This document shows, one piece after another, positions 33,011 through 48,355 of a stretch of 64,000 nucleotides of DNA (the stretch's first letter is position 1; each line of letters starts with the position of its first letter). The translations under genes were made by a program, and so were the position numbers. Under the pieces are notes generated by a model that was given only the letters and a program-made list of their open reading frames with translations, did not search any database and was not told the origin of the DNA. Source of the DNA: Prauserella isguenensis (lineage in GTDB: Bacteria > Actinomycetota > Actinomycetes > Mycobacteriales > Pseudonocardiaceae); assembly GCF_014191605.1 (NCBI RefSeq), contig NZ_JACHWU010000002.1, positions 248,001-312,000 on the forward strand, given 5' to 3'.

Positions 33011-34471
33011 TCATTCGGGCAGCAACCGGGTCACGAGCCGGGACAACTGCCGGATCGTGCGGCATTCGAACATCGGCACCTCCCGGGCGTACCGGTGCGC
33101 CTCGGAGTCACCGGTGCCCCACGACGACTCGCGTTCCGGGTTGAGCCAGTAGACGTGCCGGGCGCGCCCTGCGATCCCGCGCAGCGCGGCGAGGTTCGGG
33201 GGAGCGCCGTTGGTGCGGCCGTCGCCGAGGACGAGCACGCTGGTGCGGGGACCGAGCACATCGCCCCAGCCGTCGGTGAACGTCTGCAGCGCCCCGTCGT
33301 AGTCGCTGCTCATGCCGATCGTCGTCAGGTTCGCCTCGGCGACGATGCGCTCGGCCAGGTTCTCGGGCTCGTCCCGGCCCGCCCGCACCAGGTCGGTGAT
33401 CTCGTCGGTCCGCGAGACGAACGCGAAGCTGCGGACCTTCGAGAACTGATCACTCAGCGCCTGCGTCAGCAGGAGCGTGAACTGGGCGAACCCGGCGACC
33501 GAGCCGGACATGTCGCACAGCAGCACCAGCTCGGGTCTACCGGGACGTCTGCGGCGCATGACCGGTCGCATCGGTACACCGCCGGTCGCCAGCGACCGGC
33601 GCACGGTACGGCGCAGATCGATCCGTCCCCGTGCCGCGCGCCTGCGTCGGGCCGCCAGCCGCGTGGCCAGTTTGCGGGACAGCGGCTGCACCGCGCGGCG
33701 CATCTCGGCGAACTGCTCCGCGGTCGCGCTCGTGAACGACACGAGCTCGGTCTGCGGAGCCACGGCGTGCCGTGCGATGCGGTCGCGCCCGCGGAGCTCG
33801 GCCGTGCGCCTGCGCGCCTCGGCCCGCACGTGCTCGGTGAACGACGCGATCCCCGCGGCGGCCTCCCTGTCCGCGAGTGCCTCCGCGGCCTCGCCGTCGA
33901 GCCCGTCGGTTCTGGCGTCGCGAATCGCGGTCCGCAACCGCGCCCGTAACGCCTGGGGGCGCACCTCGGACAACGCCTGATACGCCGACCAGCCGCTCAG
34001 CCGCGCCGCCGGACTCCCGTTCCCACCGGCCTGTCCCGTACCGCCCTGCGCACCCTCACCACCGTGACCTCCCTGGCCTTGCCCACCGCCCGCGACGGCG
34101 CCGTAGCCGCCGAACAGGTCGATCCCCGTGGCGGCCAGCGCACGCACCCGGGCGTCGTCGCCCGCCACGAGCGCGTCGAGGAGCCGATCGCGCAGCTGCG
34201 CGGGTGTCTCCGGATCGTCGGAAGCGGTCTCCGAGGTGCCGTGCGCGGCGGGAAAGTAGAGGTCGAAGACGCCGTCGAACACCGGCCGCTGCGCCGAACC
34301 CCGCAGCACGCTCGCGGCGAGGGCCTCCCGGAGCCGCTCCCGATCGGCGAACCCGACGGCCTCGGCGGCCGCGGCGGCGTCGACCGTCTCCCCGGTGCCG
34401 ACCGCGACGCCGTGCTCGCGCAGCGCGTGCGCGAATTCCACGAGCCTGCTGGCCACCGCGTGCGGCGTCAT
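33011..34471 (-). CDS. VWA-domain protein (CoxE-like)
   Basis: 486 aa. The C-terminal half carries a von Willebrand A/CoxE domain with the MIDAS motif CDMSGSV, later Thr (TTIGMSSDYDGAL) and Asp (LGDGRTN). The N-terminal half has a helical region with a Gly/Gln-rich spacer near residue 130. ATG 34471 overlaps the stop of the MoxR gene (ATGA), so the two are coupled. MoxR ATPase and VWA pairs act as metal-insertion or protein-remodelling chaperones; the client is not evident. Confidence 0.88.
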   Translation of the reverse strand: MTPHAVASRLVEFAHALREHGVAVGTGETVDAAAAAEAVGFADRERLREALAASVLRGSAQRPVFDGVFDLYFPAAHGTSETASDDPETPAQLRDRLLDALVAGDDARVRALAATGIDLFGGYGAVAGGGQGQGGHGGEGAQGGTGQAGGNGSPAARLSGWSAYQALSEVRPQALRARLRTAIRDARTDGLDGEAAEALADREAAAGIASFTEHVRAEARRRTAELRGRDRIARHAVAPQTELVSFTSATAEQFAEMRRAVQPLSRKLATRLAARRRRAARGRIDLRRTVRRSLATGGVPMRPVMRRRRPGRPELVLLCDMSGSVAGFAQFTLLLTQALSDQFSKVRSFAFVSRTDEITDLVRAGRDEPENLAERIVAEANLTTIGMSSDYDGALQTFTDGWGDVLGPRTSVLVLGDGRTNGAPPNLAALRGIAGRARHVYWLNPERESSWGTGDSEAHRYAREVPMFECRTIRQLSRLVTRLLPE

Positions 34472-35469
34472 GACACGGAGCTGCCGGACGGTGCCGGGTT
34501 CGCGGATCGTGCCGCGGCGGAGCTGCCGGCGGTGTCCGTGGAGGAGAGCATGTGATCGAGTCGCAGCTCGGACAGTGCCTTCCGCTGGTCGGTCTCGTAC
34601 TTGAGGATCACCCCGAGGGTCGCGCGCACGGTCTCCTCGTCGAGAGTCTCCGCGCCGAGAGCGAGCAGCGTGCGTGCCCAGTCCACCGATTCGGCGATCG
34701 ACGGCGACTTGCGCAGTTCCAGCTCCCGCAGCGCGCCGACGACCCGCACCAGCGAGGCGGCCAGCTCGTCGTCCAGTTGCGGCACGCGCAGCGTGACGAT
34801 GTCGCGTTCCAGGTCGGCGGGCGGGAAATCCAGGTGCAGGAACAGGCAGCGGCGTTTCAGCGCCTCCGACAACTCCCGCGTGGCGTTCGAGGTCAGCACG
34901 ACCAGGGGCCGCCGCGTCGCCGTGATCGTGCCCAGCTCGGGGACCGTGACCTGGAAGTCGCCCAGTACCTCCAACAGCAGGCCTTCGACCTCGACGTCCG
35001 CCTTGTCGACCTCGTCGATCAGCAGCACCGTCGGGTCCTCGTTGCGGATCGCCGTCAGCAGCGGGCGCGAGAGCAGGAACTCCTCGCTGAACACGTGCTC
35101 GCGGGTGGCATCCCAGCTCTCGTCCTTGGCCGCGGTGATCCGCAGCAGCTGGCTGGCGTGGTTCCACTCGTAGAGCGCGCGGGACTCGTCGATGCCCTCG
35201 TAGCACTGCAGCCGGATCAGTTCACTGTCGGTTCCGGCCGCCATGGCCCGGGCGAGTTCGGTCTTTCCGACACCGGCCGGACCTTCGACCAGCAGTGGCT
35301 TGCCGAGCCGGTCGGCGAGGAACACCGTGGTCGCCACGGCGTTCGACGCGAGGTAGCCGGCTCCTGCCAGCCGTTCGACGACCTCGTCGACCGATGCGAA
35401 CTGCGGCGCCTGCTCGGCCGACCCCGACGGGGACGCCTGCGCCGCCTGCGACGTCGATGGCTCTGTCAC
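34468..35469 (-). CDS. MoxR-family AAA+ ATPase
   Basis: 333 aa AAA+ chaperone-like ATPase. Walker A is EGPAGVGKTEL, Walker B is VLLIDEVDKAD, sensor 1 is VVLTSNATRELSEALKRRCLF with the arginine finger region, and the lid domain follows. Low-complexity Ser/Ala ends flank the core. GTG 35469 has AAGGAGT upstream. It is the first gene of the MoxR-VWA operon and would energise remodelling together with the VWA partner. Confidence 0.92.
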   Translation of the reverse strand: MTEPSTSQAAQASPSGSAEQAPQFASVDEVVERLAGAGYLASNAVATTVFLADRLGKPLLVEGPAGVGKTELARAMAAGTDSELIRLQCYEGIDESRALYEWNHASQLLRITAAKDESWDATREHVFSEEFLLSRPLLTAIRNEDPTVLLIDEVDKADVEVEGLLLEVLGDFQVTVPELGTITATRRPLVVLTSNATRELSEALKRRCLFLHLDFPPADLERDIVTLRVPQLDDELAASLVRVVGALRELELRKSPSIAESVDWARTLLALGAETLDEETVRATLGVILKYETDQRKALSELRLDHMLSSTDTAGSSAAARSANPAPSGSSVS

Positions 35470-36586: not shown

Positions 36587-37549
36587 CTAGCCCCGGGCCG
36601 ACCGGCCGAAGCGGGCGGTGAACCCGTGACGGCGGATGCGCTCGACGGCCTCGGCACCGACCAGCTCCCGTGCGATGTCGAACTCGCGGCTCAGGCGGGT
36701 GTTGCTGACCGACGGGTTGTCCGTGCACAGCGCGACCGGCACGTCCGCGGCGACGAGAGAGGCCAGCTGGTGACGCCTGCGGTCCTGCGCGGCACCGGTC
36801 TGGACGTTGCTCGTGACGGCGACCTCGAGGGTGATGCCCCGGGCGACGAGGTGGTCGAGCAGGCGCGGATCCTCGGCAGCCCGCACCCCGTGACCGATCC
36901 GTGCCGGGCCCAGGTGCCGGACGGCGTTCCACACGCTGTCCGGACCGGCCGCTTCGCCCGCGTGGACCGTGACGGGCAGGCCTGCGTCGTGAGCCGGCCG
37001 GAACGCCGGGGCGAACTGCGCCACGGGGAATCCTGCCTCGTCACCGGCCAGGTCGACGCCCACGAGCCGGTCGGCGCGACGCAGGATCCTGCGCATCTGG
37101 CGTTCGGCCGATTCCGGACCCTCGTCGCGCACGACGATGCCGATGAGCCCCACGTCGATGGGCAGGCCGTGGCCTGCGGCCGCGCCGGTCACGGTGTCGA
37201 TCACGGCGCCGGCGTCGAGACCGGTCCGGGCCGCGATGAACTGGGGACTGAAGCGCAACTCGACGGCGGTGAGCCCGTCGTCGCAGGCGTCGGCGAGGGC
37301 TTCGCGGGTGATCCACCACCAGTCGTCGAGGGTGGTGGCCAGCGTCGCGGCATTGTCGATCTTCGCCAGGTAAGGGAGCAGGTCGCCTTCGCACCCGGCC
37401 ACGAACTCGCTACGCGACGGCCGGGCACCCGCGCGTGCGGCGAGGCGGTACGCCGTGGACGGACGGATCGAGCCCTCGAGGTGCCGGTGCAGGTCGACCA
37501 TCGGACCGGCGGACAGGGAACGGGAGGAGGACAGGGGAGCGGCGGGCAT
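36587..37549 (-). CDS. add: Adenosine deaminase family enzyme
   Basis: 320 aa metal-dependent deaminase. Zinc ligands and catalytic residues are visible: DLHRHLEGS (HxH), VHAGEA (His and catalytic Glu), GHGVRA (His) and LCTDNPSVSNT (Asp). It is about the normal length, though the C-terminal end is short. ATG 37549 has AAAGG upstream. It converts adenosine to inosine, or acts on a related nucleoside or adenine. It ends 6 bases before the PrmC-like start, so the two genes are probably co-transcribed. Confidence 0.87.
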   Translation of the reverse strand: MPAAPLSSSRSLSAGPMVDLHRHLEGSIRPSTAYRLAARAGARPSRSEFVAGCEGDLLPYLAKIDNAATLATTLDDWWWITREALADACDDGLTAVELRFSPQFIAARTGLDAGAVIDTVTGAAAGHGLPIDVGLIGIVVRDEGPESAERQMRRILRRADRLVGVDLAGDEAGFPVAQFAPAFRPAHDAGLPVTVHAGEAAGPDSVWNAVRHLGPARIGHGVRAAEDPRLLDHLVARGITLEVAVTSNVQTGAAQDRRRHQLASLVAADVPVALCTDNPSVSNTRLSREFDIARELVGAEAVERIRRHGFTARFGRSARG

Positions 37550-37658
37550 GTCGAACCTTTCGCGGCGACGGCCACCGGCCGAGCCGGTGGGGAGCTGACA
37601 GCTGACGTGCGGGGGTTGCGCGCCGGGCAGCGGGCACACTGCGGACGCGGCACGTGCG

Positions 37659-37751
37659 TCAGCCGCGAAGGTCCATGCGATAGCTGTGGTCGCCGAAGAT
37701 CGCGAACACGCGATCGGCGTCGGCGATCCGGTCAACACGCATGATCGGCAT
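37659..37751 (-). CDS. Possible 30-aa small protein
   Basis: A short minus-strand frame, ATG 37751 (or ATG 37742) to TGA 37659, reads MPIMRVDRIADADRVFAIF followed by GDHSYRMDLRG. Codon choice is G/C-ending like real genes nearby and the peptide is not low complexity. It lies 17 bases after the FGGY kinase stop and 109 bases before add on the same strand, so it could be a leader peptide or small protein of either unit. I do not recognise it. Confidence 0.3.
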   Translation of the reverse strand: MPIMRVDRIADADRVFAIFGDHSYRMDLRG

Positions 37752-37768: not shown

Positions 37769-39205
37769 TCACTGTTCAACGGCCGTCCCGCCGGAGGCGC
37801 CTCCTCCGGGAAGCCAGCCGCGGCGGCGGAGTTCGCCGGTGAACCGCCGGTAGGACTCCTCCAGCCGGTCGTGCTGTGCGGGGTCGGGGTCGACCACGGT
37901 GCCGCGCACGCCGACCCGGGCGCACACCTCGGACAGCCCTCCCGGCGCCGTCGCCGCGGCGGCCAGCAGTGCCGCACCGTATGCCGTCTCGGCATGCTCG
38001 GTCACCTGCACGCTCCTGCCCGTGACGGTCGCGCGGATCGTGGTCCACAGCCTGCTCGCGCTTCCCCCTCCCGCGGCGAGCAGCGGCCCGCGGACGTCCA
38101 TCCCGAGATCGTGCACGCGTTCGAGCGCGAGACGTTCGAGGAACGCGACGCCTTCGAGGCGTGCCCGGTGGAGCTCGACGTCGTCGGCGGGGTCGCCGAC
38201 GAGGAACCCCCTGGCCTCCGGTGCTGGGAACGGGAAGCGTTCGCCCGCCCGGGCCAACGGGTAGGCCAACGCGCGGGCCGGGCCCCGTGCCTCGGCCTCG
38301 TCGTCCAGGCACGCAAGGTCGCCGGTCACTCCCTCGCCACCTGTGTTGGACGCGCCGCCCACGAGCCACCAGCCGTCCGGATGCCGGTGGCCGTACAGCG
38401 CACCCCAGGGGTCGGCGACGAGCCGTTCGGAGACGCCTTTGAGCACGTACGTCGTGCCGAGAATGCCGACGAAGCGCCCCGGTTCCACCGCGCCCGTGGC
38501 CAGTTGTGCCGCGCATCCGTCCGTCATGCCGGCCACGACAGGGCAGTGGGCGGGCAGCCCGGCGATGGGCTGCCGGGTCTCGCCGAGTACACACGTCGGC
38601 GCCACCACACCGGGAAGCCATGAATCCGGCACGCCGAGTGCCTCGAACACCTCCGAGGCCCATTCGCGCCGCACCGGGTCGTAGCCGCTCTTCAGAGCGT
38701 GCGACCAGTCCGTGGGCACCGGGTGTCCCGTCAGTGCCGCGGCGATGATCTCCGGAGTGTGGACGACGCCCGCCGCATCGGGGTACGCCGCGCGCAGCCA
38801 GGCGATACGACCGAGCGCCGCGGTCGGCGCGACCGTCGTCCCGAGCGCACCCCAGCGTGGTGCGCCGGCCTCGGCGGCCGTTGCGTTCTCGCCTGCGCCA
38901 CGTCGGTCGTCGTACATGAGGGCCGGCGACACGGGCTCGCCGCGGTGGTCGACCGCGACGACCGTGCCAGACGTGGCCGACACCGCGACCGCGTCGGCCG
39001 GACCGACCTCGGGACGTGCGCACACCTGCCGCAGGACCGACTCCACGGCGGGCCACCAGGTGCGGGCGTCCTGTTCGCTACTCCCGTCGGCCGAGCGCAC
39101 CGGGCGGGGCAGCGGCGCTGCGGCGCTGGCGAGCACGACGCCGTCGGGCGCGACCGCGAAGGCCCGGACCCCCGCGGTCGCCACGTCGATGCCGACGACC
39201 GTCAC
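37769..39205 (-). CDS. FGGY-family carbohydrate kinase (xylulokinase-like)
   Basis: 478 aa sugar kinase. The phosphate-1 motif is VGIDVATAGVRAFAV, the acceptor-site region MYDDRRG, then GMTDGCAAQLATGAV, and the adenosine region LLAAGGGSASRLW. FGGY proteins phosphorylate ketoses or polyols. GTG 39205 overlaps the stop of the upstream transporter gene (GTGA), so the two are coupled and the kinase most likely acts on what that transporter imports. The Asp in the usual DxGT motif is kept but Gly-Thr is changed to Ala-Thr. Specificity unknown. Confidence 0.87.
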   Translation of the reverse strand: MTVVGIDVATAGVRAFAVAPDGVVLASAAAPLPRPVRSADGSSEQDARTWWPAVESVLRQVCARPEVGPADAVAVSATSGTVVAVDHRGEPVSPALMYDDRRGAGENATAAEAGAPRWGALGTTVAPTAALGRIAWLRAAYPDAAGVVHTPEIIAAALTGHPVPTDWSHALKSGYDPVRREWASEVFEALGVPDSWLPGVVAPTCVLGETRQPIAGLPAHCPVVAGMTDGCAAQLATGAVEPGRFVGILGTTYVLKGVSERLVADPWGALYGHRHPDGWWLVGGASNTGGEGVTGDLACLDDEAEARGPARALAYPLARAGERFPFPAPEARGFLVGDPADDVELHRARLEGVAFLERLALERVHDLGMDVRGPLLAAGGGSASRLWTTIRATVTGRSVQVTEHAETAYGAALLAAAATAPGGLSEVCARVGVRGTVVDPDPAQHDRLEESYRRFTGELRRRGWLPGGGASGGTAVEQ

Positions 39206-40566
39206 CGATGCACCACGGGTCCCTGCGTCGCGTCCTGCGTCACTTCTTCGGTGACCTCTTGCAGGTTGGCGTCCTTCGCGAGCGCTTCCTCGGTGGCCTC
39301 GGGCAGCTCCAGGAAGCGCACGATCACCGCGGCGACCACGTACAGCGCCGAGAAGATGATCACCACGCCCGCGGCGCCGGTCGGCCCGAGGAACAGGCTC
39401 ACGATCGCCGGCCCGACGAAGGTCGCGGCGCCCGCGCCGAGGTTCAACAGCGCCATCGCCCCACCCTTGTTCTCGGGGGCCAGTGACGGCAGCAGCGCCG
39501 AGATCGGTACGAACCCGGCCAGCGTGGCGCCGTACAACGCACCCACGAGCAGCGCCACCCAGTAGTAGTCGGCGCCGAGTGCGAGCGGAACGAAGTACAA
39601 CAGCAGGATCGAGACGGCACAGCCGACGGCGCCGAACCAGAAGATCGTGGTGCGCCAGCCGATCCTGTCGGAGACCACGCCGAAGATCAGGTTGAACACG
39701 ATGTTGGTGCCGTAGATGACGGACACGAGCAGCAGCCAGCGTCCCTCGCCGAATCCGATCTGGTGGGCGAAGATCGTCGGGAAGAACACGAGCATGCCGA
39801 ACTCGGGTGCGGTGTTGATGACCCGTGCGATCATGCCGAGCCCGACCTGCGGCTTCTGCCAGGCGATCGACACACTCGACACGAGACTCTGGACGGGTTT
39901 CACATCGGGCGGTGCGAGCCGCTGGTAGCCCGTGCGTTCCCGCACCCCGAGCAGGCAGACCAGGCCGCCGAGTCCGAGGATGCCGATCGAGAGCCACAGG
40001 GTCCCGTAGTGGCCGAAGATCGGGTTGGTCACGCTCGCCACGAGCGAACCCAGGGTCGGCAGTCCTCCGGTGAAGGCGAAGTAGAACCACCCCACGGCGG
40101 CTCCGAGGCGTGCTATCGGCGCAACGGCCGTGATCCAGACCAGGAACCCGAACGCGAACATCGGATAGCCGAAGCCACGGATGCCGTAGAACACCATCAT
40201 GAGTGTGTAGTTCTCATCCGAAACTGCGATCGCGAGGAAAAGTACGTCGAACACCAGCCAGATGGCGAGACCGAGCATCATGACCCGGCGCGGCCCCCAC
40301 AGTTCCGACAGTGCGCCGGACAACCACGACGCGAGCATGACGGCGACGCCGTACACGGTGATCACGTAGGAGGCGCGGATGTCGGTTCCGGCACCGTGAT
40401 CGGCCATGAATGGCGCGATGAAGCCGGACTCGACGCCGTCGCCGATCATGAACAGGAGCAGGCCGACGTAGCCCAACACCAACGGCGCGGGCAGGCCCCA
40501 TTTCTCGAGCAACCCGCGGAAACCTCCGCCGGCTCCGGACAACGTCGGTGTTGTCTGCGCAGTCAT
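39202..40566 (-). CDS. MFS transporter, polyol permease type (RbtT/DalT-like)
   Basis: 454 aa, 12 helices. The first helices read LVLGYVGLLLFMIGDGVESGF, then WLSGALSELWGPRRVMMLG and MMVFYGIRGFGYPMFAFGF. These are strongly reminiscent of the ribitol and D-arabinitol permeases RbtT and DalT. ATG 40566 follows GGAGGGAAG; the 13 codons before it are not needed. The C-terminal tail is acidic. It heads the transporter-kinase unit and has a DeoR-type operator (40605-40617) 39 bases upstream. Substrate is probably a sugar alcohol or related ketose. Confidence 0.87.
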   Translation of the reverse strand: MTAQTTPTLSGAGGGFRGLLEKWGLPAPLVLGYVGLLLFMIGDGVESGFIAPFMADHGAGTDIRASYVITVYGVAVMLASWLSGALSELWGPRRVMMLGLAIWLVFDVLFLAIAVSDENYTLMMVFYGIRGFGYPMFAFGFLVWITAVAPIARLGAAVGWFYFAFTGGLPTLGSLVASVTNPIFGHYGTLWLSIGILGLGGLVCLLGVRERTGYQRLAPPDVKPVQSLVSSVSIAWQKPQVGLGMIARVINTAPEFGMLVFFPTIFAHQIGFGEGRWLLLVSVIYGTNIVFNLIFGVVSDRIGWRTTIFWFGAVGCAVSILLLYFVPLALGADYYWVALLVGALYGATLAGFVPISALLPSLAPENKGGAMALLNLGAGAATFVGPAIVSLFLGPTGAAGVVIIFSALYVVAAVIVRFLELPEATEEALAKDANLQEVTEEVTQDATQGPVVHR

Positions 40567-40604
40567 CTTCCCTCCATGGGTGCGGCTCGAAGCATCATCA
40601 CCCA

Positions 40605-40617
40605 TGTGAAGTTCACA
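40605..40617. promoter_or_regulatory. Candidate DeoR operator before the transporter-kinase unit
   Basis: Perfect 13-bp palindrome TGTGAAGTTCACA, matching the core of the second palindrome in this locus (TGTTAATTTAACA) at 10 of 13 positions. An AT-rich stretch (TGTTATTTAAGG, 40626-40637) follows. Position upstream of the transporter gene fits repression by the neighbouring DeoR protein. Confidence 0.65.
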
Positions 40618-40668
40618 GACAAGATGTTATTTAAGGTTCTCCTGGTCGCCGGGGCGGCGCCACCTCCG

Positions 40669-41469
40669 TCACAGCGGTGCGACGTCCACCTGCGTGCGGT
40701 TGCGCAGCTCCTCGACGGTCGCCTCAGGCGTCCCCGAATCCACGATCACCCTGTGGTAGTCGGTGACCGGCGCCAAGCGGTGCAGGGCGGTCCGCGGCAT
40801 CTTGCTGGAGTCCATCAGCAGCACGCGATTCTGTGCGCTCTGCAGCATGGCCCGCTTGACCATGACGACCTCGGGCTCCTGGTGAAAGGTCAGTTCCGCG
40901 GTCATCGCCGACGTGGAGACGAACGTCGTGTCCACGGTGAGCCGTTCGACCGCCTCGAGGCACGGCATGCCGAGGAAAGCGTCGTGCGTGGGGGAGTAGT
41001 CGCCGCCGATCGCGATGAGACGCACGTCGTCGATGTCCTTGAGTACGTCGATCGCGCGCAGGTAGTTGGTCGCGACGGTCAGCGGGGTGACCTCGCCGAG
41101 CAGCGTGGCCAGTGCCAGCGCGCTCGTGGAGTCGTCGAGCAGGATCGACATCCCCGGTTCCACATGGGCCAGCGCCTGCCGGGCGATGGCGGCCTTGGCT
41201 TCGACGTGGGCATTGAGCCGGTACTCGGAGTTGCTCTCGAACACGGTCGAGGGCTGCGCGGACACGCCGCCGCGGAACTTGCGCAGCAGGCCCCGGCGAG
41301 CCAGCTCGTCGAGATCCCGGTGGACCGTCATCACGCTGACACCGGTCAGCTCCGCCAGCTCCGCCGCCGAGGCCGAACCGTTGTTCACCACGTAGTCCGT
41401 GATGCGCTGTTGCCTGCTCGCGCGCTGCCCTGCACTCTTGTCGGTCTTCTCCGTCACGCGGCACAGCAT
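40669..41469 (-). CDS. DeoR/GlpR family transcriptional regulator
   Basis: 266 aa. The N-terminal winged HTH has QRASRQQRITDYVVNNGSAS and AELAELTGVSVMTVHRDLDEL, with RKFRGGVS after it, diagnostic of DeoR. The C-terminal sugar-phosphate-sensing domain follows (LLDDSTSALALATLL, TNYLRAIDVL, FVSTSAM). DeoR proteins release operators when they bind a pathway sugar phosphate. ATG 41469 is 1 base after the phosphatase stop; GTG 41457 is an alternative start. It is the likely local regulator of the whole 37.8-47.5 kb locus. Confidence 0.9.
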   Translation of the reverse strand: MLCRVTEKTDKSAGQRASRQQRITDYVVNNGSASAAELAELTGVSVMTVHRDLDELARRGLLRKFRGGVSAQPSTVFESNSEYRLNAHVEAKAAIARQALAHVEPGMSILLDDSTSALALATLLGEVTPLTVATNYLRAIDVLKDIDDVRLIAIGGDYSPTHDAFLGMPCLEAVERLTVDTTFVSTSAMTAELTFHQEPEVVMVKRAMLQSAQNRVLLMDSSKMPRTALHRLAPVTDYHRVIVDSGTPEATVEELRNRTQVDVAPL

Positions 41470-41470
41470 C

Positions 41471-42082
41471 TCATTCCACGGGTGCGTTCAACCGGTACAG
41501 GCTGGCGTGTCCTGCGTCGATGCCGATCTCGGTGATCGCGACGTTCTCGAGTCTCGGCAGTGCGCGCCGGTAGGCCGGTAGCGGGATGTCGAGCAGGTGA
41601 CACAGTGCGAGCCGCAGCAGCGTGTTATGCGCGACCACCAGTGCCGGCCCGCCCGCATGTTCGGCGTGTTCGGCGATCCTTCCGATGGCCGCCACGGCGC
41701 GCTCGGCGACGGCCACGGGCTTCTCCGCGTCGGGGAACGCACCCGTCACCGGGTCGGCACGGAAGCGTGCGACCACGTCCTCGGGCAGTTCACAGAGTGT
41801 CCGCCCTTCGGCGACGCCGAAGTGGGCCTCCCGAAACTCCGGCTCGACGTCGACGGCCAGGCCGAGGGCGGTGGCGACGGGTTCGGCTGTCGCCACCGCC
41901 CTGCTGAGCGGGGAGGAGTGGACCGCCACGGGAGGTTCCGCAGCCAGTGTCACGTGCCGTGCGAGTGCCGCGGCCTGGGCGGTGCCGCGGTCGGTGAGCG
42001 CGACGTCGCTGCTGCCGGCGTACCGATTCTCGGCGTGCCACGTCGTCTCCCCGTGCCGCACCAGTAGAACTCGACCGCCCAT
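41471..42082 (-). CDS. Histidine phosphatase family protein
   Basis: 203 aa phosphoglycerate-mutase-like phosphatase. The phospho-His motif is LVRHGETTWHAENRYAGSSD; SSPLSRAVATAEPVA supplies the second Arg, and the C-terminal His is in VAHNTLLRLAL. ATG 42082 was chosen over a TTG two codons earlier because GGAGG lies 6 bases before it. It is co-oriented with the DeoR gene and probably removes phosphate from a sugar-phosphate intermediate or serves house-cleaning; the exact substrate is not evident. Confidence 0.87.
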   Translation of the reverse strand: MGGRVLLVRHGETTWHAENRYAGSSDVALTDRGTAQAAALARHVTLAAEPPVAVHSSPLSRAVATAEPVATALGLAVDVEPEFREAHFGVAEGRTLCELPEDVVARFRADPVTGAFPDAEKPVAVAERAVAAIGRIAEHAEHAGGPALVVAHNTLLRLALCHLLDIPLPAYRRALPRLENVAITEIGIDAGHASLYRLNAPVE

Positions 42083-42112
42083 GCACAACCTCCGATGACA
42101 AATCTCGACTAC

Positions 42113-42129
42113 GGTGTTAATTTAACACC
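42113..42129. promoter_or_regulatory. Candidate DeoR operator in the divergent promoter region
   Basis: Perfect 17-bp palindrome GGTGTTAATTTAACACC (8-bp arms around a central T) in the 69-base region between the phosphatase and HAD genes. Its core matches the palindrome at 40605-40617. It is placed to control both divergent units of the locus. Confidence 0.75.
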
Positions 42130-42151
42130 TGGGACGTGAAAGGGGCTGTGA

Positions 42152-42829
42152 ATGACGTTCGCCGCGGTCGTGTTCGACCTCGACGGAGTACTGGTCGAGA
42201 GTGAACACCTCTGGGAAGAGAACTGGATCGCCTACGCCGGCCGACACGGCGTGGAATGGACGGCCGAGGACACCGCCACGGTGCAGGGGATGAGTGCTCC
42301 CGAATGGGCTGCCTACCTCGCCGACCGGAGCGGCACGAACGAGACCGTGCAGCAGGTCGAGGACGCGGTCGTCGACGGCATGATCGCCTCGATCGAAAGC
42401 GGCGAGGCACCACTGCTGGCCGGCGCGGACGCCATGGTGCGCGGTGTGGGTGCGCAGGCTCCCATCGCGCTCGCCTCCTCGGCGGCGCGCCGCGTGATCG
42501 ACGCCGTGCTGACGACCCACGGCCTGACCGACGAGTTCAGCGTCACCGTGTCGAGCGCCGAGGTGCCCAGGGGCAAACCGAGCCCCGACGTCTACACCGA
42601 GGCCGCCGCACGACTCGGTGTCCCGGGGAGCCGTTGCCTCGGCGTGGAGGACTCGAGCAACGGAATCCGCGCCGCCGTGGCCGCGGGCCTCACCGTCGTC
42701 GCGCTACCCAACCCGACCTACCCACCGAAGCCCGACGCACTCGAACTGGCCGCCGACGTCGCGGCCGACAACGACGACGTCCGCCGAACCCTGCTCGCCT
42801 ACCTCACCGGAGAGTTGGTGCGATCATGA
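42152..42829 (+). CDS. HAD-superfamily phosphatase (beta-phosphoglucomutase-like)
   Basis: 225 aa HAD subfamily IA protein. Motif I is VVFDLDGVLVES, motif II LASSAAR, motif III Lys in PRGKPSPDVY, and motif IV VEDSSNGIRAA, all intact. It has the helical cap of beta-PGM-like enzymes. It may be a phosphatase that clears excess or misphosphorylated sugar in this pathway, or a mutase. It is first in the plus-strand operon and overlaps the kinase gene start by 4 bases (ATGA). Confidence 0.87.
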   Translation: MTFAAVVFDLDGVLVESEHLWEENWIAYAGRHGVEWTAEDTATVQGMSAPEWAAYLADRSGTNETVQQVEDAVVDGMIASIESGEAPLLAGADAMVRGVGAQAPIALASSAARRVIDAVLTTHGLTDEFSVTVSSAEVPRGKPSPDVYTEAAARLGVPGSRCLGVEDSSNGIRAAVAAGLTVVALPNPTYPPKPDALELAADVAADNDDVRRTLLAYLTGELVRS

Positions 42830-44496
42830 CCGTGCTGGGAACCGCCGAGACCTTCAAACGCGACTGGGTCGACGGCTTCGTCACCGCCTACGGGCGCGAG
42901 GTCCGCAAAGTCCCGGACGCCTACGGCGTGGTCGGCGCCGAGGTTCCGAGACCCGGCAAGGTCGCCGTGGTGATCGGCGGCGGCTGCGGGCACTACCCGG
43001 CGTTCGCGGGCCTGGTCGGTCATGGACTCGCCGACGGCGCCGTCGTCGGCGACGTGTTCACCAGCCCCAGTGCCGAGCAGGTCTACCGCACGGCGCGGGA
43101 AGCCTCCGGCGGTGCCGGCGTCCTGTTCGGCTACGGCAACTACCAGGGCGACGTGCTCCACTTCGGACTCGCGGCACGCAGGCTGGCCGCCGAGGGCATC
43201 GACAGCCGCACGATCCTCGTCACCGACGACGTGGCCAGCGGCCCCTCCGACGATCCCGCGAGCAGGCGCGGCGTGGCGGGTGACTTCTTCGTCTTCAAGG
43301 TTGCGGGCGCCGCGGCCGAGCGCGGCGACGACCTCGACGGCGTGTACGCCGCGGCTGTGAAGGCCAACGACCACACCCGCACATTCGGAGCCGCCTTCGG
43401 TGGATGCACGCTCCCCGGGGCCGCCGAGCCGCTGTTCACGGTCGCCGACACCGACATGGAACTCGGCCTCGGCATCCACGGCGAACCGGGCGTACGCACC
43501 GTCGGCAGGCTGGCCGCCACCGAGCTGGCCGACGAGCTCGTCGACGGCCTCCTGCCCGAACTGCCGAGCAGTGACGGACGCGTCGCCGTGCTGCTCAACG
43601 GGCTCGGCCGCACCAAGTACGAAGAGATGTTCGTGACGTACAAACGTGTCCACGAACGCCTCGTCGACGCAGGTCTGGACCCCGTGCACATCGAGGTCGG
43701 CGAGTTCGTCACCTCGCTCGACATGGCGGGCGTGTCCCTGTCGGCGATGGTCCTCGACGACGAGCTGGCCGAGCTGTACGCGGCACCGTGTTCGTCCCCG
43801 GGGTACCGCAGCGACGGCCGTCCCGTCGCGCCGGTGCGACCCTCGGTCACGGTCGACGACGCCCTCGCCACCGCCGGTGGCGAGGGGGAGAGCACCGTGG
43901 ACAGGGCACTCACCGCGGCACTTCGGCGGATCGAGGAGAACGAGGACGAACTCGGCAGGCTCGACGCCGTCGCCGCCGACGGCGACCACGGGCTCGGAAT
44001 GACTCGCGGCATGCGCGCGGCGGTCGCAGCGGCACGCGACCGCGACGGCCCAGCCGAGCAGCTGCTCGCCGCGGGCACGGCGTTCGCCGACGCGGCAGGT
44101 GGTGCCTCCGGCGCGCTGTACGGCGTGCTGCTGGCCGAAACGGGCGCGGGTCTGCGCGGCGAGATCACGGCCGCGACCCTGGCCGATGCCGTCGACGGCG
44201 CAGTCCGGGCGTTCACGGCGCTGGGCAAGGCCGAGCCGGGCGACAAGACCATGCTCGACGCGATCGAACCGTTCCGCGCCACACTGCGCACCCACACCGG
44301 CTCCGACATCGCCGACGCCTGGCGCAAAGCCGCCCAAGCCGCCACCGTGGCAGCGCAGGAGACCGCGGACCTGGTTCCCGGCAAAGGACGTGCGGCGCGG
44401 CTGGCGGAACGCAGCAAAGGCCACGCCGACCCGGGGGCGACGTCGTTCGCGCTCCTCGTCACCGCGGTCGGCGACGTACTGGGAGGGCAGAACTGA
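42826..44496 (+). CDS. Fused DhaK-DhaL dihydroxyacetone/tetrulose kinase
   Basis: 556 aa ATP-dependent kinase with both domains in one chain. DhaK (1-330) has VVIGGGCGHYPAFAGLVG, YGNYQGDVLHF, and the substrate-binding His in ELGLGIHGEPG. DhaL (350-556) has the metal/ATP motif AADGDHGLGMTRG and GGASGALYG. Family members phosphorylate dihydroxyacetone, and some actinobacterial relatives phosphorylate D- or L-erythrulose in tetritol catabolism. The RpiB-type isomerase that starts in its stop codon (TGATG) favours a tetrulose-kinase-like role over glycerol metabolism; this is inference from context. Confidence 0.9.
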   Translation: MTVLGTAETFKRDWVDGFVTAYGREVRKVPDAYGVVGAEVPRPGKVAVVIGGGCGHYPAFAGLVGHGLADGAVVGDVFTSPSAEQVYRTAREASGGAGVLFGYGNYQGDVLHFGLAARRLAAEGIDSRTILVTDDVASGPSDDPASRRGVAGDFFVFKVAGAAAERGDDLDGVYAAAVKANDHTRTFGAAFGGCTLPGAAEPLFTVADTDMELGLGIHGEPGVRTVGRLAATELADELVDGLLPELPSSDGRVAVLLNGLGRTKYEEMFVTYKRVHERLVDAGLDPVHIEVGEFVTSLDMAGVSLSAMVLDDELAELYAAPCSSPGYRSDGRPVAPVRPSVTVDDALATAGGEGESTVDRALTAALRRIEENEDELGRLDAVAADGDHGLGMTRGMRAAVAAARDRDGPAEQLLAAGTAFADAAGGASGALYGVLLAETGAGLRGEITAATLADAVDGAVRAFTALGKAEPGDKTMLDAIEPFRATLRTHTGSDIADAWRKAAQAATVAAQETADLVPGKGRAARLAERSKGHADPGATSFALLVTAVGDVLGGQN

Positions 44497-44960
44497 TGCG
44501 ACTCGTCGTCGCCGCGGATGACGCGGGCGTGGGACTGAAGAACGAGGTGCGGGACCTGCTGGCCACCGACGAGCGGGTCACCGACGTGATCGACGTCGGC
44601 GTGGCCGGGCCGGACGACACCCGCGCCTATCCCGTCCTCGGACTGGCCGCGGCCGAGAAGATCGCCGCGGGCGAGGCCGACCGCGGGGTGCTCGTCTGCG
44701 GCACCGGCATCGGCGTGGCCATCGCGGCGAACAAGGTCCCCGGTGTCCGTGCCACCGTGGCCCACGATTCCTACTCCGCCGAACGATCGGTCAAGTCGAA
44801 CGACTGCCAAGTGATCACGTTCGGAGCACGGGTGATCGGTCCCGAGCTCGCCAAGCGGATCGTCACCGAATGGCTCGGCTACACCTTCGACCCGGCCTCG
44901 GCCAGCGCCGCCAAGGTCGCCCACATCACCGACTACGAACAAGCAGGCGCCGGGACCTGA
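44496..44960 (+). CDS. RpiB/LacAB-family sugar-phosphate isomerase
   Basis: 154 aa, normal length for RpiB. VVAADDAGVGLKNEV replaces the usual DHAG with DDAG, and the catalytic Cys is in VLVCGTGIGVAIAANKVPGVRA. Relatives interconvert ribulose- and ribose-5-phosphate, tagatose- and galactose-6-phosphate, or erythrulose- and erythrose-phosphate. The changed DDAG motif and coupling to a DhaK-type kinase point away from housekeeping ribose isomerisation. ATG 44496 overlaps the previous stop. Confidence 0.87.
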   Translation: MRLVVAADDAGVGLKNEVRDLLATDERVTDVIDVGVAGPDDTRAYPVLGLAAAEKIAAGEADRGVLVCGTGIGVAIAANKVPGVRATVAHDSYSAERSVKSNDCQVITFGARVIGPELAKRIVTEWLGYTFDPASASAAKVAHITDYEQAGAGT

Positions 44961-44998
44961 CCTCGCCGGCACCCGGAACCGGAGCATCGAGAGGAACA

Positions 44999-46033
44999 AT
45001 GACGTTGCGGATACTCGCTGCAGGAGATGAGTTCGTCAGGACCGAGCTGCTCACCGACGCGGTGCGCGCCCGGGTGCCCGACGCCGAGCTGTCGCCGTTG
45101 TCGCTGCCTTGGCCGGTCGAACCGTTCGGCCCCGTGGGCGGGGTACAGGAGGCCAGCGGCACCGAGGAGCAGGTGATCGAGGCACTCGGCGACGCCGAGG
45201 TGGCGGTCACGCAGATGGCCCCGTTCACCAAGCAGGTGTTCGCCGCCGCCCCGAGCCTGAAACTGGTGTCGGTCTCCCGCGGAGGACCGGTGAACGTCGA
45301 CCTGGAGGCGGCCACCGAAGCCGGGGTCGCGGTCACGTTCGCGCCCGGCCGCAACGCGGCCGCCGCGGCCGAGTTCGCACTCGGGCTCATCCTCGCCGCC
45401 ATGCGCCGGATCCCGACGGCGTCCGCGGAGCTGCTCGGTGGACAGTGGCGCGGCGACTACTACGCCTATCCCAACGCGGGCCTCGAACTGGACGGCACGA
45501 CGGTGGGCCTGGTCGGTTACGGCGCGATCGGCTCGCGAGTCGCGAAGGTCCTCGTGGCGTTCGGCTCCCGCGTGCTCGTCGCGGATCCCTTCGCCCAACC
45601 CGCGCAGGTCACGGCCGACGGCGCGGAACTCGTCGACCTCGACGACCTGCTCCGCCGGAGCCCGGTAGTGAGCCTGCACGCACGGCTCACCGACGAGACC
45701 ACCCACCTGATCGACGCCGAGAAGCTCGCACTCCTGCCCGACGGTGCGGTACTGGTCAACTCCGCGCGCGGCGGCCTACTGGACTACGCACCCCTGTCCG
45801 GCCTGTTGCGCAGCGGCAAGCTCGGCGCGCTCGCACTCGACGTGTACGACGAGGAACCACCACCCGCGGACTGGGAGCTGCGGAACCTGCCGAACGTGAT
45901 CGCCACGCCGCACCTGGCCGGATGCAGCAAGCAGACCGCCGAACGGGCCGCCGAGATCGTCGCGGCGGAGGTGGGCCGTTACGTGCGCGGCGAGGACCTG
46001 CTCAACGTCGCCAACCCGGCAGTGCTGCGATGA
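44999..46033 (+). CDS. D-2-hydroxyacid dehydrogenase (phosphoglycerate dehydrogenase-like)
   Basis: 344 aa NAD(P)-dependent dehydrogenase. The Rossmann motif is GLVGYGAIGSRVAK with ADPF as the acidic discriminator. Catalytic Arg is in VNSARGGLLD, Glu in DVYDEEPPP, and His in TPHLAGCSKQT. It starts 38 bases after the isomerase stop with AGAGGAAC upstream. It ends in an ATGA overlap with the second FGGY kinase. Its substrate in this pathway is not obvious: it could reduce a 2-keto acid or oxidise a hydroxy acid derived from the sugar. Confidence 0.88.
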   Translation: MTLRILAAGDEFVRTELLTDAVRARVPDAELSPLSLPWPVEPFGPVGGVQEASGTEEQVIEALGDAEVAVTQMAPFTKQVFAAAPSLKLVSVSRGGPVNVDLEAATEAGVAVTFAPGRNAAAAAEFALGLILAAMRRIPTASAELLGGQWRGDYYAYPNAGLELDGTTVGLVGYGAIGSRVAKVLVAFGSRVLVADPFAQPAQVTADGAELVDLDDLLRRSPVVSLHARLTDETTHLIDAEKLALLPDGAVLVNSARGGLLDYAPLSGLLRSGKLGALALDVYDEEPPPADWELRNLPNVIATPHLAGCSKQTAERAAEIVAAEVGRYVRGEDLLNVANPAVLR

Positions 46034-47484
46034 CCCGCATCATCGGCGTCGACATCGGAACGTCGCTCACCAAGGCCGTCGTGTTCGACGACGACGGGTC
46101 GGCCGTCGCCGAGGCGTGCACCGCATCCGAACTGCACCAACTGCCCGGTGGCCGCGTCGAACAGGACCTCGACCAGGTCGTCGACACCGTGGCGACGGTG
46201 GTCCGCAAGGTCATGGCCGCCCTCGAGGGCCCCGTCGACGCCGTCGCGCTCACCGGGCAGGGCGACGGCGTCTGGCTCCGCGACGAGGACGGCCGGGCGG
46301 TGCGACCCGCCGTGTCCTGGTTGGACGGCCGGGCGAACACGTTGCTGGCGGAGTGGCAGGCCGGTGGTGTGTCCACGGAGGTGTTCCGCCGCACCGCCTC
46401 CGGCCTGTTCCCCGGCTGCGCAGCACCCGTCCTGTCGTACCTGGACGCTCACGAGCCCGAGACACTCGACCGCGCGGCCGTCGCCGGGTACTGCGTGGAC
46501 GCGGTGCTGCAGCGGCTCACGGGCGAGATCACCGTCGACGTCTCCGACGCGTCGTTGCCGTTCCTCGACCCCGTGACCCGGCGTTACGACGACAGAGCCG
46601 TCGCCGCGTGCGGACTCGCGCACCGGCGGGACCTGCTGGCCGAACCCGCGAAGCCGAGGACCGTCTTCGCGCTCGACGCCCGCGGCGCCGAGTTGCTCGG
46701 CCTGCCGACGGGACTGCCGGTGACGGCCGGGCCGTTCGACCTGCCCGCCAGCGCCATCGGCGCGGGTGTGCGCGACCCGGGCGACGGCATCCTCACCGCA
46801 GGAACGACACTCGCGTGCCAGGTCCTCACCGGCGACGCCTATTTCGATCCGGACGGCGAACCGGCGGGCATGTTCCTGTCCACGCCGAACGAGGGGGAGT
46901 ACCTGCGGGCGATGCCGGCAATGGTCGGCACCGCGAGCATCGACTGGGCGTGCCGGATGTTCGGGATCGAGGTCGATCACGTCGGCCGGCTGCTCACGGA
47001 GAGCGGCCCCGGAGCGCGAGGAGTCCGCGCGCTGCCGTTCCTGTCGGCGTCGGGGGAGCGGGCCCCGTTCGTCGACGCGGCCGCACGCGCGCAGTTCTCC
47101 GGGCTGAGCCTCGAACACGGGCCGGCGGACGTCATGCGTGCGCTGTGCGAGTCGATCGCCTACGCCGCGCGGCACTGCTTCGACGCGGCAGGGCTGTCCG
47201 GCACGCTCTACGCCTGCGGAGGCGGCGTCCGCTCCGAGGAGTGGACGCAGCTCTTCGCCGACGTGCTGGGCAGGCCGATCGTCATTCCGAGCGACCCCGG
47301 CGTGGGCGCGCGCGGAGCGGTGCTGGTGGCGGCCGAGGCCTTGGGGGAGCCGTACGACGCGGAACGCTGGGCCGCCAGTTCGCGCACGGTGGCGTTCGAG
47401 CCCTCTGCGGCCGAGTTCTATCGGGACGGCTACGCCGACTACCAGGCGTCGCTGGCCTCGGCGCGGCAGCTGTGGCGGCTGTGA
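46030..47484 (+). CDS. FGGY-family carbohydrate kinase, second copy
   Basis: 484 aa. Motifs are IIGVDIGTSLTKAVVFD (phosphate 1), VSWLDGRAN, the sugar region TAGPFDLPASAIGAGV, and TLYACGGGVRSEEWTQL (adenosine). The EYLRAMPAMVGTASIDW segment is shared with polyol and ketose kinases such as those for erythritol or lyxulose. It is distant from the other FGGY kinase at 37.8 kb, so the locus phosphorylates at least two substrates or two epimers. Last gene of the plus-strand operon. Confidence 0.88.
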   Translation: MTRIIGVDIGTSLTKAVVFDDDGSAVAEACTASELHQLPGGRVEQDLDQVVDTVATVVRKVMAALEGPVDAVALTGQGDGVWLRDEDGRAVRPAVSWLDGRANTLLAEWQAGGVSTEVFRRTASGLFPGCAAPVLSYLDAHEPETLDRAAVAGYCVDAVLQRLTGEITVDVSDASLPFLDPVTRRYDDRAVAACGLAHRRDLLAEPAKPRTVFALDARGAELLGLPTGLPVTAGPFDLPASAIGAGVRDPGDGILTAGTTLACQVLTGDAYFDPDGEPAGMFLSTPNEGEYLRAMPAMVGTASIDWACRMFGIEVDHVGRLLTESGPGARGVRALPFLSASGERAPFVDAAARAQFSGLSLEHGPADVMRALCESIAYAARHCFDAAGLSGTLYACGGGVRSEEWTQLFADVLGRPIVIPSDPGVGARGAVLVAAEALGEPYDAERWAASSRTVAFEPSAAEFYRDGYADYQASLASARQLWRL

Positions 47485-47611
47485 ACGTGCCGACCGTTTG
47501 CGCTCCGACCAGGCGCTTTGCGCCAGCCGATCGTCATCGGGTGGCCGCGGCGTTGTGTGACAGCCGACCTACGGGCGAGCACCGGAACCTACGGGTGCGT
47601 AGCCTGGAGGC

Positions 47612-48355
47612 GTGGCAGAGATCGTGTACCCGCCCGTCGTACTGGCGGCCAAGACCATGTTCCGCGTGCTCGACAACCGGCTGCGGGTGACGGGCACCGA
47701 ACACGTCCCGCGCACCGGCGGGGCGGTGATCGCCTGCAATCACATCGGCTACCTGGACTTCATCTTCTGCGGCCTCGGGGCGCAGCCCGCGAAGCGGCTG
47801 GTGCGGTTCATGGCCAAGAAGGAGATCTTCGACAACCGGATCGCGGGCCCGCTGATGCGCGGCATGCACCACATCTCGGTCGACCGCGCAGCGGGCAAGG
47901 CCTCCTACGACGAGGCCGTGGACCGGCTGCGTTCGGGCGAGGTCGTCGGGGTGTTCCCGGAGGCGACGATCAGCCGGTCGTTCACGATCAAGCCGATCAA
48001 GTCCGGGGCGATCCGCATGGCCGCCGACGCGGGTGTGCCGGTCGTCCCGATGGCGCTGTGGGGCACGCAGCGCCTCTGGACCAAGGGACGTCCGAAGGAA
48101 CTCACCAAGCGGCACGTCCCGATCCACATTCACGCGGGGGAACCGCTGCGCCCGACGCCGGACGACGACCCGGACGCGCTCAGCGGCGATCTGCGTGCGC
48201 GACTGCAGTCGACCCTGGACAAGCTGCAGGCCGACTACCCGGACCACCCTGCCGGCGAGGACGACCGCTGGTGGTTGCCCGCGCACCTCGGCGGAACCGC
48301 GCCGACTCCCGAGGAAGCCGCCGAACTCGACGCGAAAGGTTCGAACCGGGACTGA
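47612..48355 (+). CDS. 1-acylglycerol-3-phosphate acyltransferase-like protein (PlsC family)
   Basis: 247 aa. The acyltransferase motifs are NHIGYLD (NHx4D, block I), GMHHISVDR (block II region), VVGVFPEATIS (block III) and GVPVVPMALWGTQ (block IV). A short hydrophobic N-terminus suggests peripheral or single-pass membrane attachment. It acylates lysophosphatidate or a related glycolipid. GTG 47612 follows GGAGGC closely, and a -10-like TAGCCT is nearby. Confidence 0.9.
   Translation: MAEIVYPPVVLAAKTMFRVLDNRLRVTGTEHVPRTGGAVIACNHIGYLDFIFCGLGAQPAKRLVRFMAKKEIFDNRIAGPLMRGMHHISVDRAAGKASYDEAVDRLRSGEVVGVFPEATISRSFTIKPIKSGAIRMAADAGVPVVPMALWGTQRLWTKGRPKELTKRHVPIHIHAGEPLRPTPDDDPDALSGDLRARLQSTLDKLQADYPDHPAGEDDRWWLPAHLGGTAPTPEEAAELDAKGSNRD

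Follow-up and report, generated by a model that had tools for sequence, protein, structure and literature searches.

A conserved gene block of Prauserella isguenensis that probably serves polyol catabolism, possibly by moving a phosphate along the sugar chain

A block of nine genes in Prauserella isguenensis, at positions 37769-47484 of the 64-kb stretch of the 4.95-Mb genome that we analysed (the window), probably serves the catabolism of polyols. The genes form two divergent groups, four on the minus strand and five on the plus strand. We propose that small polyols are phosphorylated, oxidised to ketose-1-phosphates and then relieved of the phosphate, which a second kinase would add again at another carbon; for this scheme in full we see a chance that is close to even, if slightly less. 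More tentative still is a modular pathway, in which swappable cassettes (HisP-K1, HAD-DhaKL-RpiB or an aldolase) would replace the isomerases EryC and EryH. All nine genes and the families given for them in an original prediction on this DNA are present by profile matches. In the list below, EryA-, RbtA- and RbtB-like refer to the erythritol-adonitol-L-arabitol locus of Sinorhizobium meliloti and S. fredii, and the C4 and C5 arms are the two back ends of the proposed route.

37769..39205, minus strand: K1, FGGY ketose kinase (FGGY_N/C), RbtB-like; predicted D-ribulose kinase (C5 arm)
39202..40566 (open frame to 40605), minus strand: major facilitator superfamily permease, RbtT/DalT/CsbX family (TIGR00897, 532.7 bits, cut-off 375)
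40605..40617: palindrome TGTGAAGTTCACA, operator-like, ahead of the permease gene
40669..41469, minus strand: DeoR-family regulator (HTH_DeoR and DeoRC)
41471..42082, minus strand: HisP, histidine phosphatase (His_Phos_1, 1.6e-47); predicted pentulose-1-phosphate phosphatase (C5 arm)
42113..42129: palindrome GGTGTTAATTTAACACC, operator-like, located between the divergent HisP and HAD genes
42152..42829, plus strand: HAD, HAD-IA sugar phosphatase, HxpB-like (PF00702, 7.9e-28); predicted tetrulose-1-phosphate phosphatase (C4 arm)
42826..44496, plus strand: DhaKL, fused DhaK-DhaL ketose kinase (NF011049, 647 bits, cut-off 492); predicted erythrulose kinase (C4 arm)
44496..44960, plus strand: RpiB (TIGR02133, 177.7 bits, cut-off 168.2); predicted erythrulose-4-phosphate isomerase, DerI/EryI type
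44999..46033, plus strand: HADH, D-2-hydroxyacid-dehydrogenase family, RbtA-like (PF02826, 2.1e-52); predicted polyol-phosphate dehydrogenase
46030..47484, plus strand: K2, FGGY kinase, EryA-like; predicted tetritol/pentitol kinase

In the proposed route, every reaction, substrate and regulatory step of which is predicted from gene comparisons, the RbtT/DalT-type permease would import the polyol. The likeliest substrates are erythritol and ribitol or closely related stereoisomers. K2 would phosphorylate one end, and HADH would oxidise the carbon next to the phosphate to give a ketose-1-phosphate, which two interchangeable back ends would then take. In the C5 arm, HisP would strip the 1-phosphate off a pentulose-1-phosphate and K1 would rephosphorylate D-ribulose at C5, yielding D-ribulose-5-phosphate. 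In the C4 arm, HAD would strip the 1-phosphate off a tetrulose-1-phosphate, DhaKL would rephosphorylate D-erythrulose at C4, and RpiB would isomerise the product to D-erythrose-4-phosphate. The products of both arms would enter the pentose phosphate pathway. We propose that the three kinases and two phosphatases of the block are one polyol kinase and two phosphatase-kinase pairs.

The case for ketose-1-phosphates is a stereochemical argument of our own, proposed here and unproven. The product of EryA in Brucella is L-erythritol-4-phosphate. This compound is equally D-erythritol-1-phosphate, and its oxidation next to the phosphate would give D-erythrulose-1-phosphate; the same end of ribitol would lead to D-ribulose-1-phosphate. 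In neither product would the phosphate be at the end that the pentose phosphate pathway requires. A scheme that moves the phosphate would explain the number of kinases (three) and phosphatases (two), the absence of a short-chain dehydrogenase/reductase (SDR) or medium-chain dehydrogenase/reductase (MDR), and the pairing of genes in our survey of related loci. No description of such a phosphatase-kinase scheme was found among the titles and abstract openings of the open-licence PubMed Central literature.

The survey comprised two sets. The first came from a search of 297 Streptomycetaceae genomes for HADH: 63 of them have matches at E <= 1e-75, at 65 places in total, and the neighbourhood of every place was read. 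The second set holds 32 named loci; one genome, that of Streptomyces sulphureus, occurs as L111 and L173 and is counted once per set, and it is on this identity that the family name of the first set is based. K2 stands beside HADH at 63 of the 65 places, and at one of the two K2-less places (L234) the contig breaks off. K1 and HisP are both present at 54 places and both absent from eight. HisP is never found alone; K1 is at three, where one stretch starts at a contig end, one stops inside K1 and one retains roughly the first 58 residues of HisP. HAD, DhaKL and RpiB occur as a trio at six places, and neither HAD nor DhaKL stands alone anywhere. Both arms are present, as in the window, at one of these six places (L178), and the other five are without K1 and HisP.

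Among the named loci, 24 contain K1, HisP, HAD, DhaKL, HADH, K2 and a permease, 23 of these with RpiB too, the set being anchored on DhaKL so that DhaKL counts hold there by construction. HADH is present in 31 of the 32, together with HAD in 31, RpiB in 30 and a class II aldolase in 23; K1 and HisP accompany it jointly in 24 and are both missing in seven. K1 and HisP stay paired across at least six gene orders, and the trio HAD-DhaKL-RpiB across two. The conservation of the block exceeds chance, and K1-HisP and HAD-DhaKL-RpiB are each co-inherited beside a nearly constant K2-HADH. Because the surveyed sequences are related and Fisher p-values ignore this kinship, such values are not probabilities here, and what argues for co-inheritance is that the pairing is exclusive and that the gene orders are shuffled.

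Family profile scans detected neither an SDR nor a zinc MDR among the nine genes, in agreement with the original prediction. Over the 97 related loci, one SDR query and one MDR query gave SDR-like genes in the stretches of four loci and no MDR. EryB-, EryC-, TpiB- and LerI-like genes were found above the search thresholds in 0 of the 97; if the route needs these steps, other enzymes or genes at other loci carry them out.

Some related loci depart from the common layout. Two genomes have two HADH places each, G700 (L175 and L177) and G931 (L172 and L204); in G700, one place carries the C4 arm and the other the C5 arm and the aldolase, with no K2. L146, in G467, reads K1-DeoR-HisP // K2 and has no HADH. 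A zinc-type alcohol dehydrogenase gene lies 0.8 kb downstream of K2 on the opposite strand and is a possible replacement for HADH. The same genome also carries a C4-arm block (L147). In Amycolatopsis palatopharyngis (L047, 4715-6040), an RbtT/DalT-type permease of 43% identity and other orientation takes the place of the usual one.

The two FGGY kinases have different relatives. K2 scores 208 and 195 bits with the EryA-position kinases of Klebsiella and S. meliloti, compared with 134 for XylB and 90 for FucK. Among the references used, the EryA-position kinases are its nearest outside its own locus family. K1 is 36% identical to the RbtB-position FGGY kinase of S. meliloti (173 bits, and 96 bits with E. 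coli XylB). Its best PDB matches are 5htn and 5htr (SePSK/AtXK-1; 144.5 and 143 bits), and the xylulose kinase 2itm reaches 90.5 bits. In an FGGY tree of 66 rows, one branch (support 100/99) separates K2 and the EryA rows from the rest, and another (100/100) sets apart K1 and the RbtB-position rows, with long branches meeting at the K1/RbtB and reference rows. Neither K1 nor K2 groups with GlpK. We predict that K2 is a polyol kinase of EryA type, nearer to polyol than to ketose kinases. EryA of S. meliloti accepts adonitol and L-arabitol as well as erythritol, according to the excerpted text of Geddes 2013 (PMC3599248).

The original prediction had paired a DhaK-type tetrulose kinase with an RpiB isomerase, and this part is supported: by identity and motif, a DhaKL apart from the glycerol type stands next to an RpiB of DerI type. 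DhaKL is 49-54% identical to the DhaKLs of Arthrobacter, Mycolicibacterium, Paracoccus and Rubrobacter, with P. halophila and P. alba as its closest matches (91%), and only 38% and 36% identical to E. coli DhaK and to the other DhaK of the genome (L001). Where these two read GHEPxH, it reads GHYPAF. His and Asp positions that we take to be catalytic are conserved. Identity and motif support the view that DhaKL lies outside the glycerol-type dihydroxyacetone (DHA) kinases. A D-threonate/erythronate route (OtnK/OtnC/PdxA) was rejected: PdxA and sugar-phosphate isomerase genes accompany the DhaKL relatives of Paracoccus and Pararhizobium, and the block has no such gene.

RpiB is 59% identical to the DhaKL-adjoining RpiBs of Arthrobacter, Microbacterium and Mycolicibacterium. 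Its identity is 51% to the counterpart in the Sinorhizobium ery locus, 41% to the E. coli enzyme, and 35% and 31% to the genome's two other copies, both DHAG-type. The His is indeed missing from its DDAG motif, described earlier as altered, but other RpiBs share the change. The form D[DNES]A, with no His, is found in 15 of 18 aligned RpiBs, the window's included, and these are every aligned row from this block or from beside DhaKL, ery or polyol genes. The remaining three (E. coli RpiB and the genome's two others) have DH. The closest solved structures, 3qd5 and 3sdw, which we take to be from Coccidioides, likewise read DDAG.

HADH and the S. meliloti protein at the RbtA position share 45% identity across 336 alignment columns. 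Its Arg, Glu and His residues, presumably the catalytic triad of 2-hydroxyacid dehydrogenases, are kept in 16 of 16 aligned sequences. The loop ARAGVGLDN of 1wwk corresponds to VSRGGPVN in HADH, and RGGPVN is present in 96 of 96 homologues; we count the loop as changed and not as having an extra Arg, given that 1wwk itself carries an Arg two columns before. An AlphaFold model (predicted local distance difference test 81, predicted template modelling score 0.66, 18 close sequences) confirmed only the fold. Whole-chain superpositions of the model were poor (root-mean-square deviation 6.8-8.7). The phosphatase HAD scores 110.6 bits with the HxpB model, under the cut-off of 191.

A third back end may operate in most Amycolatopsis relatives, where a class II aldolase would cleave the ketose-1-phosphate into dihydroxyacetone phosphate and an aldehyde. 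The aldolase gene follows K2 in 23 of the 32 named loci (Amycolatopsis, Saccharomonospora and P. muralis). It is missing from the window and from P. halophila, P. rugosa and P. alba (L033, L035 and L037), five Nocardiopsis and Streptomyces sulphureus. In the window (47484-47612), the next gene after K2 encodes an acyltransferase and not a class II aldolase. Among the scored families, Shinella H4-D48 has a transporter, an EryA-like kinase, HADH and a class II aldolase, as expected if HADH makes a ketose-1-phosphate. The best PDB match of the relatives' aldolase is 6btd, which is DrdA (PMC6079011). The scores near DrdA and ribulose-1-phosphate aldolase, together with an adenosine deaminase gene next to the block (36587-37738), led us to consider 5-deoxyribose disposal and nucleoside salvage. 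We rejected both: the aldolase has 0 matches elsewhere in the P. isguenensis genome, in a search without a positive control. No deaminase is among the recurring neighbour families of the related loci.

Both transcription units may answer to the same regulator. The gap between HisP and HAD contains the 17-base perfect palindrome GGTGTTAATTTAACACC. Its relaxed core, TGTKAANTTMACA, has two matches in the whole window, at 42115 and 40605 (0 of 100 shuffles). These sole two palindromes lie in the divergent gap and upstream of the permease, which suggests that the two units form one DeoR regulon; DeoR would bind the TGTKAANTTMACA sites as predicted operators and act on both units through them. In 25 of the 32 named loci, the strict core TGTTAANTTAACA lies no more than 200 bp upstream of HAD; there are 26 sites in 652,187 bases. 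Seven loci do not have it there: five Nocardiopsis, one Streptomyces and the truncated contig L051. For the permease, a start at 40566 is more likely than one at the first ATG, which lies at the edge of the operator-like palindrome; the internal ATG follows a GGAGG.

Most genes of the block had been said to overlap by 4 bases. This holds for three of the seven same-strand junctions, and "most" is an overstatement: one further junction, DhaKL/RpiB, overlaps by 1 base, and three are gaps. Rfam and tRNA scans of the window gave no matches. A gene for a CoxE-like VWA protein adjoins an AAA ATPase gene at 33011-35469 on the minus strand and is unrelated to the block.

Several findings weigh against the proposed route, beside the kinship of the surveyed sequences, the anchoring of the second set and the long branches of the FGGY tree. 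In L177, HADH, K1, HisP and the aldolase are present and K2 is absent. L227 has an RpiB (39%) without DhaKL, about 4.5 kb from HisP, and P. muralis (L052) has the block and the aldolase with RpiB absent between DhaKL and HADH (11671-11703). The aldolase is found at one of the 65 Streptomycetaceae places, and its best-scoring models stay below cut-off (L-fuculose-phosphate aldolase, 212 bits; ribulose-1-phosphate aldolase, 211 bits). RpiB reaches 160 bits with the DerI model NF051858, below the cut-off of 240, and the XylB model scores under its cut-off. The weakest link of the proposed route is the oxidation step assigned to HADH. We know of no polyol phosphate oxidation in the D-2-hydroxyacid dehydrogenase family, and the best structure matches of HADH are phosphoglycerate dehydrogenase and glyoxylate reductase. 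The step is also insecure because RbtA-bearing rhizobia keep EryB as well, and because two GlpD/EryB-like genes lie elsewhere in the P. isguenensis genome. EryB is present in 20 of the 20 genomes of Table 2 in Geddes 2013, including five without EryC/TpiB, so that EryB may do the oxidation in rhizobia and RbtA something else; the excerpted text also has M. ciceri positive for RbtB and RbtC with RbtA missing (PMC3599248).

These last points fit an alternative in which the phosphatases serve metabolite repair by clearing dead-end phosphates of polyols or ketoses, HADH is a true hydroxyacid or hydroxypyruvate-glyoxylate reductase acting on an overflow product, and a GlpD-type enzyme encoded elsewhere oxidises the polyol phosphates. 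The HAD and HisP families include repair phosphatases, and HADH is nearest to its two reference enzymes in sequence as well as in fold. We nevertheless consider this alternative unlikely. It does not predict the separate pairs HisP-K1 and HAD-DhaKL; it is HADH, and no EryB-like gene, that stands beside K2 at nearly all Streptomycetaceae places; and the substrate loop of HADH is invariant among the homologues. We give equally little credence to the import of a ketose as such, with phosphorylation by DhaKL or an FGGY kinase, isomerisation by RpiB, and the dehydrogenase and phosphatases as accessories. Ketose uptake without polyol oxidation was the reading of the original prediction, where only SDR and MDR enzymes were counted as polyol dehydrogenases, and it is disfavoured. 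In its favour, and against the phosphate-moving route, six of the eight loci with Streptomyces DhaKLs at 60-64% identity have from the block only the permease beside DhaKL (67-70% identical, divergent from DhaKL), as a ketose permease-kinase pair would. However, K2 and HADH stay together while DhaKL and RpiB come and go, and K2 is nearer to polyol than to ketose kinases. The permease model is that of the RbtT/DalT/CsbX subfamily, presumably named after polyol transporters. The EryA-like K2, this permease and the RbtA-like HADH favour a polyol route in which phosphorylation comes first.

An ordinary glycerol/DHA locus with a housekeeping RpiB is very improbable. DhaKL does belong to the DHA-kinase superfamily and keeps its His and Asp positions. 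Its low identity to E. coli DhaK and its GHYPAF motif speak against such a locus, as do the separate GHEP-type DhaK and the two DHAG-type RpiBs elsewhere in the genome, the absence of a glycerol dehydrogenase from the block, and the position of both FGGY kinases away from GlpK. The original prediction had set three contrary outcomes beforehand. By identities and motifs, DhaKL does not side with the glycerol type nor RpiB with the housekeeping copies, and the neighbourhood is conserved.

The six Streptomyces permease-DhaKL pairs (L061, L064, L065, L066, L069 and L091), whose DhaKLs are 62-64% identical to that of the block, are candidates for the uptake of a ketose, DHA or erythrulose. They adjoin a twice-repeated four-gene cassette, which in L061 encodes a nitrate-sensing histidine-kinase-like protein, a roadblock protein, a small protein and an ATP-binding protein.

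If true, the phosphate-moving route would give jobs to RbtA and RbtC in rhizobia and to phosphatases that travel with sugar kinases, and a role to a dehydrogenase present in more than a fifth of the sampled Streptomycetaceae genomes (63/297). It would also add a new reaction to the D-2-hydroxyacid dehydrogenase family and a new bypass of the erythritol isomerases, useful in tetrose and polyol engineering. Direct ketose uptake, if true, would be of interest as well: an excerpt of a 2025 paper describes transporters and kinases for direct tetrose uptake as not reported (PMC12780249).

The proposed route has parts in common with several known systems. In the haloarchaeal non-carboxylating pentose bisphosphate pathway, a HAD phosphatase makes ribulose-1-phosphate and a FucA-like aldolase cleaves it (PMC9700705, in part). 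Unlike the Prauserella block, that pathway is fed from nucleosides via ribose-1,5-bisphosphate and has no polyol kinase. The 5-deoxyribose disposal route (DrdK-DrdI-DrdA) resembles the relatives' loci in its aldolase; its kinase and isomerase are of other families, of which the block has none, and the clade of the window lacks the aldolase.

The tetritol pathway of Mycolicibacterium smegmatis comprises DthD/EltD, DerK/LerK, LerI and DerI. The free polyol is oxidised first there, by SDR/MDR dehydrogenases. Free erythrulose is an intermediate, according to the same 2025 excerpt (PMC12780249). As in this member of the same phylum, a DhaK-type tetrulose kinase gene adjoins that of an RpiB-type tetrose-phosphate isomerase in Prauserella. 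In contrast, the Prauserella block is without SDR/MDR and has an EryA-like kinase, an RbtA-like dehydrogenase and phosphatases. In Brucella, phosphorylation comes first and oxidation follows, with the isomerases EryC and EryH next and an EryI-type RpiB last. Its erythritol genes are EryA, EryB, EryC, EryH and EryI (PMC10190533, in part). The order of phosphorylation and oxidation proposed here and the EryI-type RpiB at the end are alike. The block is without EryB, EryC and EryH, and a phosphatase and a second kinase would move the phosphate instead.

The rhizobial locus is described with the genes EryA, EryB, EryC, EryD, EryR, TpiB, MptA, LalA and RbtA-C in the excerpted text of Geddes 2013 (PMC3599248). 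In S. fredii NGR234, we read the order as Mpt-type transporter-EryA-HADH-EryB-LalA-K1-like FGGY-HAD-IIA phosphatase-EryC-DeoR-TpiB-RpiB, with LalA in the class II aldolase family. This order and Table 2 of that paper leave three genes over, from which we infer by elimination that RbtA is HADH, RbtB the K1-like FGGY kinase and RbtC the HAD-IIA phosphatase. The S. fredii phosphatase has 281 residues (TIGR01459, 247.8 bits, cut-off 103.75); in S. meliloti Ak57 (L162, 14482-15117), the HAD-like frame at the rbtC position is short and unannotated. On rhizobial replicons, HADH relatives come after the EryA-like kinase. A Shinella plasmid (L160) carries an unassigned locus of polyol type: a 49% relative of K2 stands there with genes for a lipoyl synthase, 2-oxo-acid-dehydrogenase-like subunits, a class II fructose-bisphosphate aldolase and a GlpD/EryB-like protein. 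HADH is absent from it, as expected if HADH and EryB-like enzymes replace each other. The Prauserella block shares with the S. meliloti and S. fredii locus the homologues of EryA (K2), RbtA (HADH), RbtB (K1), RpiB and DeoR, and in both a ketose kinase and a phosphatase belong to one locus. The phosphatases differ, being HAD-IA and histidine phosphatases in Prauserella and HAD-IIA in S. fredii. EryB, EryC, TpiB, LalA and the Mpt transporter are absent from the nine genes, and we propose that DhaKL substitutes for the EryC/TpiB isomerase steps.

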